Source: Fulvivirga marina
GTDB lineage: Bacteria; Bacteroidota; Bacteroidia; Cytophagales; Cyclobacteriaceae
Direction of reading: 5' to 3'
Assembly (NCBI RefSeq): GCF_016775155.1
Contig: NZ_JAEUGD010000023.1
Span: forward strand, 124,001 to 188,000
Length of the DNA stretch: 64,000 bases
The notes beneath the pieces were generated by a model that saw only the letters and a list, made by a program, of their open reading frames with translations, was not told the origin of the DNA and did not search any database. Of the stretch, positions 1,112-57,440 are shown one piece after another (the stretch's first letter is position 1; each line of letters starts with the position of its first letter). The position numbers were made by a program, and so were the translations under genes.

Positions 1112-1273
1112 ATGAAACTAAGAAATTTAATGATCGTACTAGGTATAATTTTCACTGTGTTGAGCTTTTCGGCCTGTACAGATGAATCTGAGAATATTGT
1201 ACCTCAACCAGTCAATGTTGAAGAGCCCGTGGCCACGGTTGGAAATGAAGGAGAAGATCATGAGCCAATGTAA
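1112..1273 (+). CDS. Small lipoprotein of the lipoprotein-TPR-XRE arrangement (copy A)
   Basis: This 53-residue gene has an ATG start. The N-terminus is a lipoprotein signal: MKLRN, a hydrophobic core, then a lipobox LSFSAC with Cys near residue 22. The mature peptide is only about 32 residues, acidic and proline-rich, ending EGEDHEPM. TATACTTG at 1082-1089 resembles the Bacteroidetes -7 box TAnnTTTG. A TPR gene follows on the same strand and a convergent XRE regulator follows that. A similar small lipoprotein (57270-57440) sits in the same relative place in a second copy. Function unknown. Confidence 0.65.
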   Translation: MKLRNLMIVLGIIFTVLSFSACTDESENIVPQPVNVEEPVATVGNEGEDHEPM

Positions 1274-3782: not shown

Positions 3783-4088
3783 ATGAATACTTCATGGGAA
3801 ACCTCCAAAAGAAAATATTGTGAGCTACTCAATGGGCTAGATAACCTAATAGCCAGTGCTGGAGACCTGATTGTGCACTATGAGCAGGATAATATGGAAT
3901 TTGCTCATCTCATTTATGAGAAAGAACTCCTTGAGCTAATGCGTAAAGCTGAATTTATGGATGACTATGAACGGGAGTTCATGCATATGTATTATTCTCT
4001 TCACGGGCAGATACAACGCCTGAAGCGCTACCGCGAAATTGTTAGTCTGATGGTACTGAAAGACCCTATTAATATTCCAAAGAATTGA
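3783..4088 (+). CDS. Unrecognised small soluble helical protein
   Basis: The protein has 101 residues, no signal peptide and no membrane segment. The sequence is rich in charged residues, Leu and Tyr with long heptad-like helices (HLIYEKELLELMRKAEF, YSLHGQIQRLKRYREIV). The family is unknown to me. It stands alone: the XRE regulator upstream is divergent and about 700 bases without a clear gene follow. The ATG start is the first in frame. Confidence 0.5.
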   Translation: MNTSWETSKRKYCELLNGLDNLIASAGDLIVHYEQDNMEFAHLIYEKELLELMRKAEFMDDYEREFMHMYYSLHGQIQRLKRYREIVSLMVLKDPINIPKN

Positions 4089-54843: not shown

Positions 54844-55068
54844 TCAATCCATCTCAGTGGCATTGCCGTTCATGAACTTATAGCTTTGAATTGACCGATC
54901 ATATATAATAGATTGATCAGATTCATTCTTCAATGCTATGATGTAGTTCAACAATTGTCTCTTAGACACCCCCAAAGTTTCTGCGAGGTCTTCCGGGCTA
55001 CCGGTGCTTTCCTGTTCTATTAGCTCCTGAAGCCTGTTAAATCTTGATAATATTTCTTGTAGTCCCAT
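54844..55068 (-). CDS. Small helix-turn-helix (HTH_11/DeoR-like) protein
   Basis: The protein has 74 residues. A single winged-helix-type motif LQELIEQESTGSPEDLAETL then GVSKRQLLNYIIALKN matches the HTH seen at the start of DeoR/WYL-type regulators. A short basic wing and acidic tail follow, without an effector domain. It starts three bases after an 85-residue protein gene on the same strand. It could regulate that operon or the divergent XRE gene. Confidence 0.75.
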   Translation of the reverse strand: MGLQEILSRFNRLQELIEQESTGSPEDLAETLGVSKRQLLNYIIALKNESDQSIIYDRSIQSYKFMNGNATEMD

Positions 55069-55071
55069 CCA

Positions 55072-55329
55072 TTAAAGTGGTATATACCTGATCTGTGCTA
55101 TATTACTTTTGCTCTTTTTTTCTAATATCTCAATCATATTGCCGTTACGTCTGTACTTGAGCTCTTTGTTAATCACACGATTTGGGTATTTATGCTCAAG
55201 CTCCTCTTCAGCAAGCCAGCACAGTGAAAACTCTTTAATCTCATCAAAAAAAAGCTGTATAGTAAAATCATGTTTACTATTCCGATCAAATTCCAGCCTC
55301 GGATAAATGTCTCTTTCGGTAAGTATCAT
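55072..55329 (-). CDS. Unrecognised 85-residue soluble protein
   Basis: The protein begins MILTERDIYPRLEFDRNSKH and then IQLFFDEIKEFSLCWLAEEE, ending IEILEKKSKSNIAQIRYIPL. It has no signal peptide or membrane helix. It forms a two-gene operon with the small HTH protein, three bases apart, divergent from the XRE regulator at 55454. The small size and pairing with a DNA-binding protein resemble a toxin-antitoxin layout, but no toxin family is recognisable. Confidence 0.55.
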   Translation of the reverse strand: MILTERDIYPRLEFDRNSKHDFTIQLFFDEIKEFSLCWLAEEELEHKYPNRVINKELKYRRNGNMIEILEKKSKSNIAQIRYIPL

Positions 55330-55425
55330 AAGTTTTTAGGTTTATGGAGCGCAATGTTAGTGCGTTCATTTTGTTAAATTTCGTATCTTAACAGACATAA
55401 CACTATTATTATTTACTAATTATCG

Positions 55426-55433
55426 TAAATTTG
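55426..55433 (+). promoter_or_regulatory. Candidate -7 box (TAAATTTG) of the second XRE gene
   Basis: An exact TAnnTTTG match lies 20 bases upstream of the TTG start of the XRE gene at 55454. The spacing is the same (within one base) as for the XRE gene at 3169. Confidence 0.45.
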
Positions 55434-55453
55434 ATTAAATATATACGGTTATC

Positions 55454-55939
55454 TTGAATAATAAAATTCTACTAGGCAATAAAATTGCTTTTTATCGCAA
55501 AAAACTTAAGATGACGCAATCTGAATTCATTGAGAAGGTAAATCAGGTTGCGGGTATTTCTTTTAGAAACGCTACACTTTCCTCATGGGAGAATGGACAA
55601 TCATCCCCTACCAGTGATTTATTGCCTGTAATTGCCCAAATACTGGAAACGTCAGTCACCTATTTGTTTACCCCAGGTGAAGGTAATGACTTGGCAAACC
55701 CAACTGATACTTCTAACACCGAAGAGCCTGGTTTGTTCGATGCAGCTAAGGCAAAAACAGAGCTTTACCGCAAGTTATTTGAAGATAATCCTAAGGAGGC
55801 TTTTACGAATCTGTTGCAAGAGTATGAAGCCCTGGTTAATGTTAATGAACGCCTGAAAGAGGAAAAGCAAAAACTTGAAGGCAAACTATCTGCTTCGAGT
55901 GATTTTCTCACCCAGTTGATAAACATGAAGGGCAACTGA
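55454..55939 (+). CDS. XRE-family transcriptional regulator with coiled C-terminal extension (copy B)
   Basis: The protein has 161 residues. The HTH has GNKIAFYRKKLKMTQSEFIE and TLSSWENGQSSPTSDLLPVI, clearly parallel to copy A. After a Thr/Asn-rich linker, a coiled coil follows (NVNERLKEEKQKLEGKL). An in-frame TAA at 55436-55438 leaves TTG 55454 as the only start that keeps the motif. It converges on the TPR gene with 15 bases between stops. Probably a regulator of this module. Confidence 0.8.
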   Translation: MNNKILLGNKIAFYRKKLKMTQSEFIEKVNQVAGISFRNATLSSWENGQSSPTSDLLPVIAQILETSVTYLFTPGEGNDLANPTDTSNTEEPGLFDAAKAKTELYRKLFEDNPKEAFTNLLQEYEALVNVNERLKEEKQKLEGKLSASSDFLTQLINMKGN

Positions 55940-55954
55940 ACAGCCCTGTAAGTC

Positions 55955-57175
55955 TTAAGAGTGAATGACCTTGTAAATTTTTCTGGCCGTGTCTTGAGCA
56001 AATTGTATCTTGCGGTTTTTGCGATATAGTATAATTAGTAAAGTAATCAAAATAACCGCTAGAACTGCCAATGCCCACTTAATGTACTGATCAATTTTTA
56101 ACTGTTTGGCTAAGGCTCTGGCCTTTTCTTCACTGGCGAATTTATAGGTTGCGGCCTCTACCTGGTACTGGTTGTACATATCGTTGAGGTTTATCCTAAG
56201 CTCAAGCAAATCAGTGGTTAGTTGGTCTATGTTGTCGCTATATTTTAAGGCTTCCTGAAGGTTACCGTTTGCACGGTTGATTTCTTTTAGCTTTCTACAT
56301 ACCTCGAAGTACTCTTCGCTCATGGTTATTTGATGATCCTTGAAAAAGGAAAAACTCTTTTCAAAGAAAAGTTGTGTAGAATCCGAGTTTCTTTTTTCAT
56401 ATATGTATGCCAGGTTGGTATAAGCCGTGCCTATAAACATATGGTCGGAGAGCATATTGAGGGACTCTTTAAGGTATTTGTAAGCGGCCAGGGTGTCGTT
56501 AAATGTAAGGTATAGGTACCCAAGGTTATTATAAACTTCTCCTATGTCGTTTTTGTTTATGGCAGCTTCCATGGACTTTTCATAAGCGGCCCTGGCCTTT
56601 GGAAAATCATGTAGTGACCTATATATGCGACCAATGTTGTTATTTATCCAATATACCCTGTGTTTATCATTGGTAATTTGAGCCATATTGAGCGTTTCTG
56701 AGTATAAAGCCAAAGCCTCATCATAGCGCCCCATCTCCTGCAGTTGTAAGCCAGTGGCAGAGTTTACTTTTATCAGCCCAGCTGTGTCAGCAAGGGAAGT
56801 TCTAATTCTGATCACATCGTAGTAATATTCAAGAGCTTTGTCATGAAAGCCAGTGGCATTGTAAATATTGGCAATGTTCTCTGTAACATTAGCTACCTGC
56901 TTTATGTCTCCAAGAGTACGGTAAGCTGATAGAGCATTAAAATAATTGGAAACTGCCTCGTAGAACTTTTCATCTTTTTTCTGTAAATAAGCCATTAAGA
57001 AATAGGAGTTTGCCAAAAGCTTCTTTTCGTGTGACTCATTGGCCAAGTGATTTACTTTTTGGGCAAGATTGAGATTGGAGTTATGTCGAGCAGAATCATA
57101 GAGGTTCTGTAAATCTGATTGCGCAAAACACAACGAGCAGACCAGCAAAAAGGGGATAAAAACAAGTTTACTCAT
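55955..57175 (-). CDS. TPR protein with signal peptide and one C-terminal membrane segment (copy B)
   Basis: The protein has 406 residues from ATG 57175, which begins a signal peptide (MSKLVFIPFLLVCSLCFAQS); the frame to 57295 adds 40 unlikely residues. Tetratricopeptide repeats cover most of it, for example VTENIANIYNATGFHDKALE, NNIGRIYRSLHDFPKARAAY and YNNLGYLYLTFNDTLAAYKY. A coiled region and a membrane helix near 365-384 lead to a basic tail ending TARKIYKVIHS. Copy A also has RKIYxV in its tail. No kinase or DNA-binding output follows. Confidence 0.75.
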   Translation of the reverse strand: MSKLVFIPFLLVCSLCFAQSDLQNLYDSARHNSNLNLAQKVNHLANESHEKKLLANSYFLMAYLQKKDEKFYEAVSNYFNALSAYRTLGDIKQVANVTENIANIYNATGFHDKALEYYYDVIRIRTSLADTAGLIKVNSATGLQLQEMGRYDEALALYSETLNMAQITNDKHRVYWINNNIGRIYRSLHDFPKARAAYEKSMEAAINKNDIGEVYNNLGYLYLTFNDTLAAYKYLKESLNMLSDHMFIGTAYTNLAYIYEKRNSDSTQLFFEKSFSFFKDHQITMSEEYFEVCRKLKEINRANGNLQEALKYSDNIDQLTTDLLELRINLNDMYNQYQVEAATYKFASEEKARALAKQLKIDQYIKWALAVLAVILITLLIILYRKNRKIQFAQDTARKIYKVIHS

Positions 57176-57210
57176 AAATATAATTTTTCCTACACCAAAA
57201 TGTAAATTAA

Positions 57211-57239
57211 ACAAAAAAGCCCGAATTTTATTCGAGCCT
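57211..57239 (-). terminator. Rho-independent terminator between the small lipoprotein and TPR genes
   Basis: On the minus strand AGGCTCGAAT (57230-57239) pairs with ATTCGGGCT (57218-57226) with two G-T pairs and a short loop, followed by TTTTTTGTTT. It ends or limits the small-lipoprotein transcript before the TPR gene. Confidence 0.75.
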
Positions 57240-57269
57240 TTCTTTGAAAAACTTACATGTATAATTTTC

Positions 57270-57440
57270 TTAATGAGCAGGGGGGGGATTGTCATCAGTG
57301 TCTGGGCTTTTATCTCCTACGGTTGAAGTTGTGGGATCCGGTTTCTTCAAATCATACAATTCATCAGCGGCAGGATCACTGCAGGAAACAGCAATTAATA
57401 ATAGTCCTAAGAAGGAGAGAAAAATTAAAGTCTTTTTCAT
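57270..57440 (-). CDS. Small lipoprotein of the lipoprotein-TPR-XRE arrangement (copy B)
   Basis: The gene encodes 56 residues from ATG 57440. A lipoprotein signal (MKKTLIFLSFLGLLLIAVSC, lipobox IAVSC) is followed by a 36-residue acidic, Asp/Pro-rich mature peptide ending DTDDNPPPAH. It mirrors the small lipoprotein at 1112-1273 in size, charge and position. A terminator follows, so it can be made in excess of the TPR protein. Function unknown. Confidence 0.7.
   Translation of the reverse strand: MKKTLIFLSFLGLLLIAVSCSDPAADELYDLKKPDPTTSTVGDKSPDTDDNPPPAH

Follow-up and report, generated by a model that had tools for sequence, protein, structure and literature searches.

The window analysed here, a 64,000-nucleotide stretch of the Fulvivirga marina genome (contig NZ_JAEUGD010000023.1, positions 124,001 to 188,000), contains a three-gene set, termed copy B, that encodes a small lipoprotein, a tetratricopeptide repeat (TPR) protein and an XRE regulator. 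Copy B belongs to a family of conserved gene sets in which a TPR protein with a predicted superhelical fold and a hydrophobic segment is co-inherited with the adjacent lipoprotein, and in which the third partner can be exchanged. Taken as a whole, these sets are best explained, tentatively, as parallel transmembrane sensor modules with a lipoprotein partner and an XRE output. The genes of copy B are:

57270..57440, minus strand: small lipoprotein, 56 amino acids (aa); lipobox, then CSDPAADELYD..., acidic, with a DDNPPPAH end
55955..57175, minus strand: TPR protein, 406 aa, described by domain searches, an AlphaFold2 model and hydropathy
55454..55939, plus strand: XRE regulator, 161 aa, TTG start, HTH_3 domain and C-terminal coiled coil

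The copy B TPR protein, whose ATG start at 57175 was picked by comparison with orthologues, comprises a signal peptide, a TPR array (Pfam TPR_12, E 1.4e-35), a helix of ∼100 residues and a 23-aa C-terminal tail. Hydropathy places a single transmembrane (TM) segment at residues 365-383, inside the long helix, and the AlphaFold2 model has a confidence (pLDDT) of 90. In the XRE protein, a disordered linker (76-95) separates HTH_3 (PF01381; 30.6 bits against a Pfam cut-off of 23) from the coiled coil. A fold search with the XRE model returned nothing at E <= 0.001, and its top matches were mostly helix-turn-helix (HTH) proteins.

The surrounding genome (6.78 Mb, 69 contigs) was searched with the proteins of copy B and of a second set in the window, copy A, which gave, at E <= 10, 21-22 matches for XRE and 66-77 for TPR. 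Clustering of open reading frames (ORFs) around these matches gave recurring TPR, XRE and small lipoprotein families, together with small proteins divergent from XRE. The first-pass annotation had proposed looking for further copies, and the genome contains far more than two. In all, 24 lipoprotein–TPR–partner sets were tabulated, 17 in this genome and seven in relatives. Cut, partial, split or unclear rows were kept off the table (C11, with its TPR gene in two pieces, C22, C43 and C52; F. kasyanovii C509 and C411; G012 C113/C247 and C179). In all 24 sets the lipoprotein gene precedes the TPR gene by 72-151 bp and encodes 49-63 aa (the G002C84 lipoprotein was read out of frame in this length range; distances and acidic counts used the right frame). 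The TPR proteins are 406-484 aa long. A convergent adjacent partner (gap -10 to 100 bp) is present in 22 of 24; the exceptions are an F. imtechensis locus with its XRE block ∼11 kb away and a locus with intervening TPR genes. The TPR–TM protein at C34:236498-237736 (412 aa), used as a negative control, has no such lipoprotein labelled beside it; the lipoprotein link is therefore not general to TPR proteins.

The partner varies. In the 17 sets of this genome it is an XRE protein in 14, HTH158 in one and a BLUF protein (PF04940, E 4e-30) in two, so that XRE is replaced in three by BLUF or another small protein. The BLUF photoreceptor occupies the XRE position beside lipoprotein–TPR pairs at C49:81115-83325 and C45:2987-5240. 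A Pfam search found nothing for HTH158 or for a 156-aa G012 protein in a similar position; a G021 relative of HTH158 (29%) has HTH_3. Among eight lipoprotein–TPR stretches from two related species, an XRE was labelled in only one. Module copies and fragments, including lone XRE genes, sit on very small contigs or contig ends (C18, C22, C43, C45, C52, C56, C67). Because many copies are so placed, the copy number in this genome may be higher than counted.

Distances between the proteins show which members travel together. Across the 14 XRE sets of this genome, Mantel correlations were 0.82 for TPR–XRE, 0.91 for TPR–lipoprotein and 0.75 for XRE–lipoprotein (p 5e-5 each). Removal of recent duplicates lowered TPR–XRE to 0.52 (12 sets, p 0.002) and 0.35 (10 sets, p 0.02), with TPR–lipoprotein at 0.85 and 0.74, respectively. 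With TPR distances held constant, XRE and the mature lipoprotein were unrelated (-0.09). The lipoprotein and TPR protein thus form a core that descends together, and XRE is more loosely attached. The earlier proposal that the genes work as a unit is strongly supported insofar as they belong together (17 sets in this genome, adjacency, congruent distances), but they are not equally tied.

Copy A had been taken as the first copy of the same module, with B as the second. Its genes, and a neighbour of a family also found beside other sets, are:

1112..1273, plus strand: small lipoprotein, 53 aa
1383..2720, plus strand: TPR protein that has a lipobox, a C-terminal TM segment and a tail of 13 aa
2735..3193, minus strand: XRE regulator, 152 aa
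3783..4088, plus strand: WEES104-family protein, 101 aa, divergent from the XRE gene

Much of the claimed resemblance holds. Order and orientation are identical (lipoprotein, then TPR, then convergent XRE), with TPR–XRE gaps of 14 and 15 bp in A and B. Both lipoproteins are small and acidic, and each TPR protein has one C-terminal TM segment by hydropathy. TPR A matches TPR_12 at E 1.6e-26 and XRE A matches HTH_3 at 38.6 bits. The XRE proteins are 46% identical over 69 aa of the HTH region in direct comparison (E 3e-20). The direct TPR match is weak (22%, E 6e-5), at a level that two TPR arrays can reach, and that between the lipoproteins is marginal (18%, E 0.002), their homology resting on a profile that covers the entire group of lipoproteins. 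The RKIYxV tail fails as a shared mark: it is absent from C6, C25 and C40, the closest paralogues of A, so the A/B agreement is probably chance. It is kept in TPR B orthologues of G014, F. kasyanovii and F. imtechensis C3. Against the anti-phage defence models of PADLOC, the seven proteins scanned gave HTH- or TPR-level matches and one weak Cas11 match (E 0.0026, TPR A).

Tree comparison agreed with the two-copy description for XRE only. In the XRE tree, A and C6 are adjacent to the B class (89/92), and XRE C25 and C40, unlike their TPR proteins, do not group with them. In the TPR tree, A falls with C6, C25 and C40 (97/93) and B with the B genes of other species; A and B are not sisters, which rules out a recent A-to-B duplication. 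A TPR group uniting A and C6 with six genes of the B class, picked with the tree already in view, was rejected (p-AU 3e-60). Swapping of XRE genes among A-class sets was only suggestive (p-AU 0.134). The two-copy description is thus too narrow, A and B being distant paralogues.

The lipoproteins carry a lipobox-type signal, recognized by eye and by pattern. Their mature parts (∼30-40 aa) begin with Cys, acidic residues and an EE[IV]xP- or DELYD-like motif, followed by a variable stretch and a class-specific end. A profile built from 19 tabulated lipoproteins found further short genes in relatives. At E <= 0.01 it matched 29 of 38 genomes, many matches being N-termini of long lipoproteins; at E <= 1e-5 it matched 10 of 291 genomes of the order, several only via long lipoproteins (own genome included in both counts). 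On this basis, the system looks centred on the genus Fulvivirga and its family. Short lipoproteins were sought in 63 stretches, of which 18 had no ORF of <= 100 aa at E <= 1e-3 and were left uncounted. The other 45 yielded 50 distinct genes. Of these, 41 have a TPR gene within 300 bp, five more are in tandem arrays so placed, one is at 620 bp and three have no TPR gene in view (for one of these, the stretch ends there). Sixteen of the 50 were profile members, and 25 of the remaining 34 lie within 300 bp of a TPR gene.

Some of these lipoproteins accompany histidine kinases. At C34:284062-286525 in this genome, near a gene that we take to be typA, one is divergent from a 703-aa TPR–HisKA–HATPase kinase. 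Lipoproteins likewise divergent from a TPR kinase occur in G006 (four in tandem) and G010 (three in tandem), giving three lipoprotein-linked kinases with HisKA/HATPase domains, the G006 HisKA match lying just below cut-off. In G011, G013, G014, G017 and G258, the lipoprotein-adjacent TPR gene, incomplete in the stretches seen, is most like these kinases; G017 and G258 are other genera of the family. Where small lipoproteins, single or tandem, are divergent from or adjacent to TPR histidine kinases or proteins closely related to these, they often end in F or W (C34:284062-286525, L254, L259, L234, L269). Tandem runs of three to four genes with identical or near-identical mature C-termini occur in G006, G010 and G013; those of G007 are more diverged. 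The C-terminal segments of G006 copies 1 and 4 match at 44 of 45 bases without synonymous change, an identity as compatible with gene conversion as with selection; four synonymous changes occur in the CxEEEVxP motif of the G006 lipoproteins.

The first-pass annotation described three genes, and these stand; it did not list two small divergent genes around copy B. With an intervening palindrome, these are:

55072..55329, minus strand: f85, 85-aa protein, divergent from the XRE gene and accompanying XRE in several relatives
54844..55068, minus strand: HTH81, 74-aa small HTH protein after f85; HTH_11-like, under the Pfam cut-off
55411..55430, no strand: AT-rich palindrome ATTTAC-N8-GTAAAT between f85 and the XRE gene, identical in G014 and in G002, F. 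imtechensis

Copy B is preserved across species. In the closed genome G014 the lipoprotein, TPR, XRE, f85 and HTH81 proteins are 77-86% identical and have the same neighbouring genes; an A-like lipoprotein–TPR pair lies ∼58 kb from the B orthologue (2072896). Lipoprotein B orthologues are 77% identical in G014 and 44-45% in F. kasyanovii and F. imtechensis. TPR B was matched at E <= 1e-20 in seven of 38 genomes (one of 24 genera) and XRE B at E <= 1e-6 in ten (two genera), own genome included. At F. imtechensis C3:64375-76911 (L171), ∼11 kb separate the XRE–f85–HTH81 block from the lipoprotein–TPR pair, with presumably rnr-like and polyprenyl-synthase-like genes between them; this split is a rearrangement. 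Compared with its closest orthologues, the TPR B domain diverges faster than the coil plus tail, with identities of 80/93% in G014, 55/97% in F. kasyanovii and 38/64% in F. imtechensis C3, and likewise in G009 and G012. The XRE B HTH is 91% identical to that of G014 and F. imtechensis, and the linker 19-24%. dN/dS was left unused, dS being high or undefined in most comparisons.

Other small-protein groups (VKDYQ94, HTH81, WEES104, HRLKG79) form operon-like runs divergent from XRE genes (window 3783-4088; L025, L026, L027, L031, L032, L036, L127). In several loci they point towards very large genes with weak, sub-cut-off RHS-repeat matches (C63, with fn3; C25), an SpvB domain (C34) or fn3 and a weak TIG match (C32). 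In G009, f85–HTH81 leads into a TPR–CHAT protein. These groups or the adjoining genes may be regulated cargo.

We propose that the genome encodes many transmembrane sensor modules in parallel and that copy B is one of them. The TPR protein, for which a sensor role is probable, would be a FimS-like sensor without its kinase, its predicted topology putting the TPR superhelix in the periplasm and the protein in the inner membrane; the single long helix would take a signal across the membrane to the short cytoplasmic tail. We slightly favour the lipoprotein as cognate ligand or regulator of the TPR protein. Small, acidic and probably disordered, it would be a dedicated partner that binds the adjacent TPR domain, most likely as a ligand or inhibitor in the form of an extended peptide, whether still anchored in the membrane or set free as a fragment. 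The balance also tips modestly towards the convergent XRE protein as the output: it would act in trans in the cytoplasm, where the TPR tail would hold or release its C-terminal coil, and would regulate f85 and HTH81 along with its own divergent promoter. The palindrome at 55411-55430 is a candidate operator for XRE. A site common to the region between XRE and f85 and to the promoter of the lipoprotein and TPR genes was sought and scored no better than shuffles.

Several results limit this proposal. The signal peptide alone tracks TPR (r 0.73, 12 sets), and the correlation therefore reflects co-inheritance, not contact. In seven of 12 comparisons, the TPR domain and the coil plus tail did not differ significantly, and these include G002C116 and G002C84, though both are nearer B than G009 in the tree; a receptor-like pattern, changing outside and constant inside, thus appears over only part of the B class. 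Around the palindrome, ∼60 bp are equally conserved and the palindrome is not singled out.

RcsF and NlpE, small lipoproteins of the outer membrane, signal to sensors in the inner membrane. The present lipoproteins would similarly partner an inner-membrane signalling protein, but have only 49-63 aa and many paralogues, each beside its own TPR gene. Under the chief rival explanation, less probable than the sensor proposal, the lipoprotein serves the TPR sensor as a tether, an inhibitor or a reporter of envelope stress rather than as a ligand; it stays anchored, mislocalisation or withdrawal altering the sensor state in the RcsF/NlpE manner. The short, acidic mature part fits this, as do the acidic residues that follow the Cys in all 24 tabulated lipoproteins, 2-5 of them at positions +2 to +8. 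These resemble the acidic +2 to +6 surface-export signals SDDDD/SDDFE (PMC5080379), but the signals compared are those of other Bacteroidetes and maybe not those of Fulvivirga. Class-specific C-termini and the tandem genes of G006, G010 and G013 would be unusual for a single tether. That the TPR protein and lipoprotein are pilotin-like envelope assembly factors, with XRE a self-regulating repressor in a dispersed element and no transmembrane signal, is improbable. XRE does find its best NCBIfam matches, all sub-threshold, among DicA/RstR-type repressors, sharing HTH_3 and an extra helix, but differs in its class-specific C-terminal coil and convergent TPR partner. Lone XRE copies, near-identical recent duplicates and copies on very small contigs also agree with a dispersed element; the pairing with TPR–histidine kinases, the tail conserved in the nearest orthologues of B and the location of B between the same genes in G014 fit sensing better. 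Least probable is a neighbourhood shared through hitchhiking or common ancestry only, by genes with independent roles. Much of the correlation is indeed co-inheritance, and TPR–XRE falls without recent duplicates, but TPR–lipoprotein remains high and adjacency persists across genera and receptor types.

Two known systems lend parts to the comparison. FimS-type TPR sensor histidine kinases of Bacteroidetes, such as that of Porphyromonas gingivalis (FimS/FimR), have a periplasmic TPR sensor domain with TM segments (PMC11053733). The copy B TPR protein likewise combines a TPR domain with a predicted TM segment, and the NCBIfam FimS model matches it at E 7e-13, yet with 47.6 bits against a 600-bit cut-off. 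Neither TPR A nor TPR B has a HisKA/HATPase domain; TPR B ends 23 residues past the TM segment, a small lipoprotein gene adjoins it and the output is on a separate gene. It is not a FimS kinase. In RRNPP systems (Rap–Phr, NprR–NprX, PlcR–PapR), a small exported polypeptide is likewise encoded beside a 250-500-aa TPR protein; XRE has a comparable HTH (PF01381), and the TPR superhelix is close to NprR and Rap. RRNPP_detector asks for a propeptide of 10-100 aa, Sec export, a receptor of 250-500 aa, TPRs and adjacency (PMC10075063). Four of these five features are present outright; Sec export joins them only where a lipoprotein signal is allowed to count, and such tags qualify solely at the 'relaxed' level. 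Here, however, the receptor has a signal-like N-terminus or lipobox and a C-terminal TM segment, against a cytosolic RRNPP receptor; the HTH is on a separate gene, the propeptide is a lipoprotein and the host is Gram-negative. Because the receptor is exported and membrane-bound, the gene set is not an RRNPP system, although it may work like one. Enterococci use lipoprotein-derived pheromones, and here too a signal peptide or lipoprotein is a possible peptide source, but the class-specific segments lie in the mature lipoprotein. Literature searches, mostly narrow conjunctions of terms, did not find this gene set.

The many scattered gene sets may together make up a family of signalling lines, each of them private. 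It is conceivable, though unlikely, that they are a Gram-negative periplasmic counterpart of RRNPP: in one cell, lipoprotein-derived peptides would serve as private signals, each to one of many parallel TPR receptors, and the output would be exchanged between XRE proteins, BLUF proteins, histidine kinases and other small regulators. The tandem lipoprotein genes whose mature C-termini are nearly identical would then be pheromone genes. For FimS, the best-studied relative found here, the signal is still given as unknown (PMC11053733). Each of the many TPR sensors would, if the proposal is true, have a genetically linked and directly testable candidate ligand, and RRNPP-like parts would have been rearranged across the Gram-negative envelope in many parallel paralogues.
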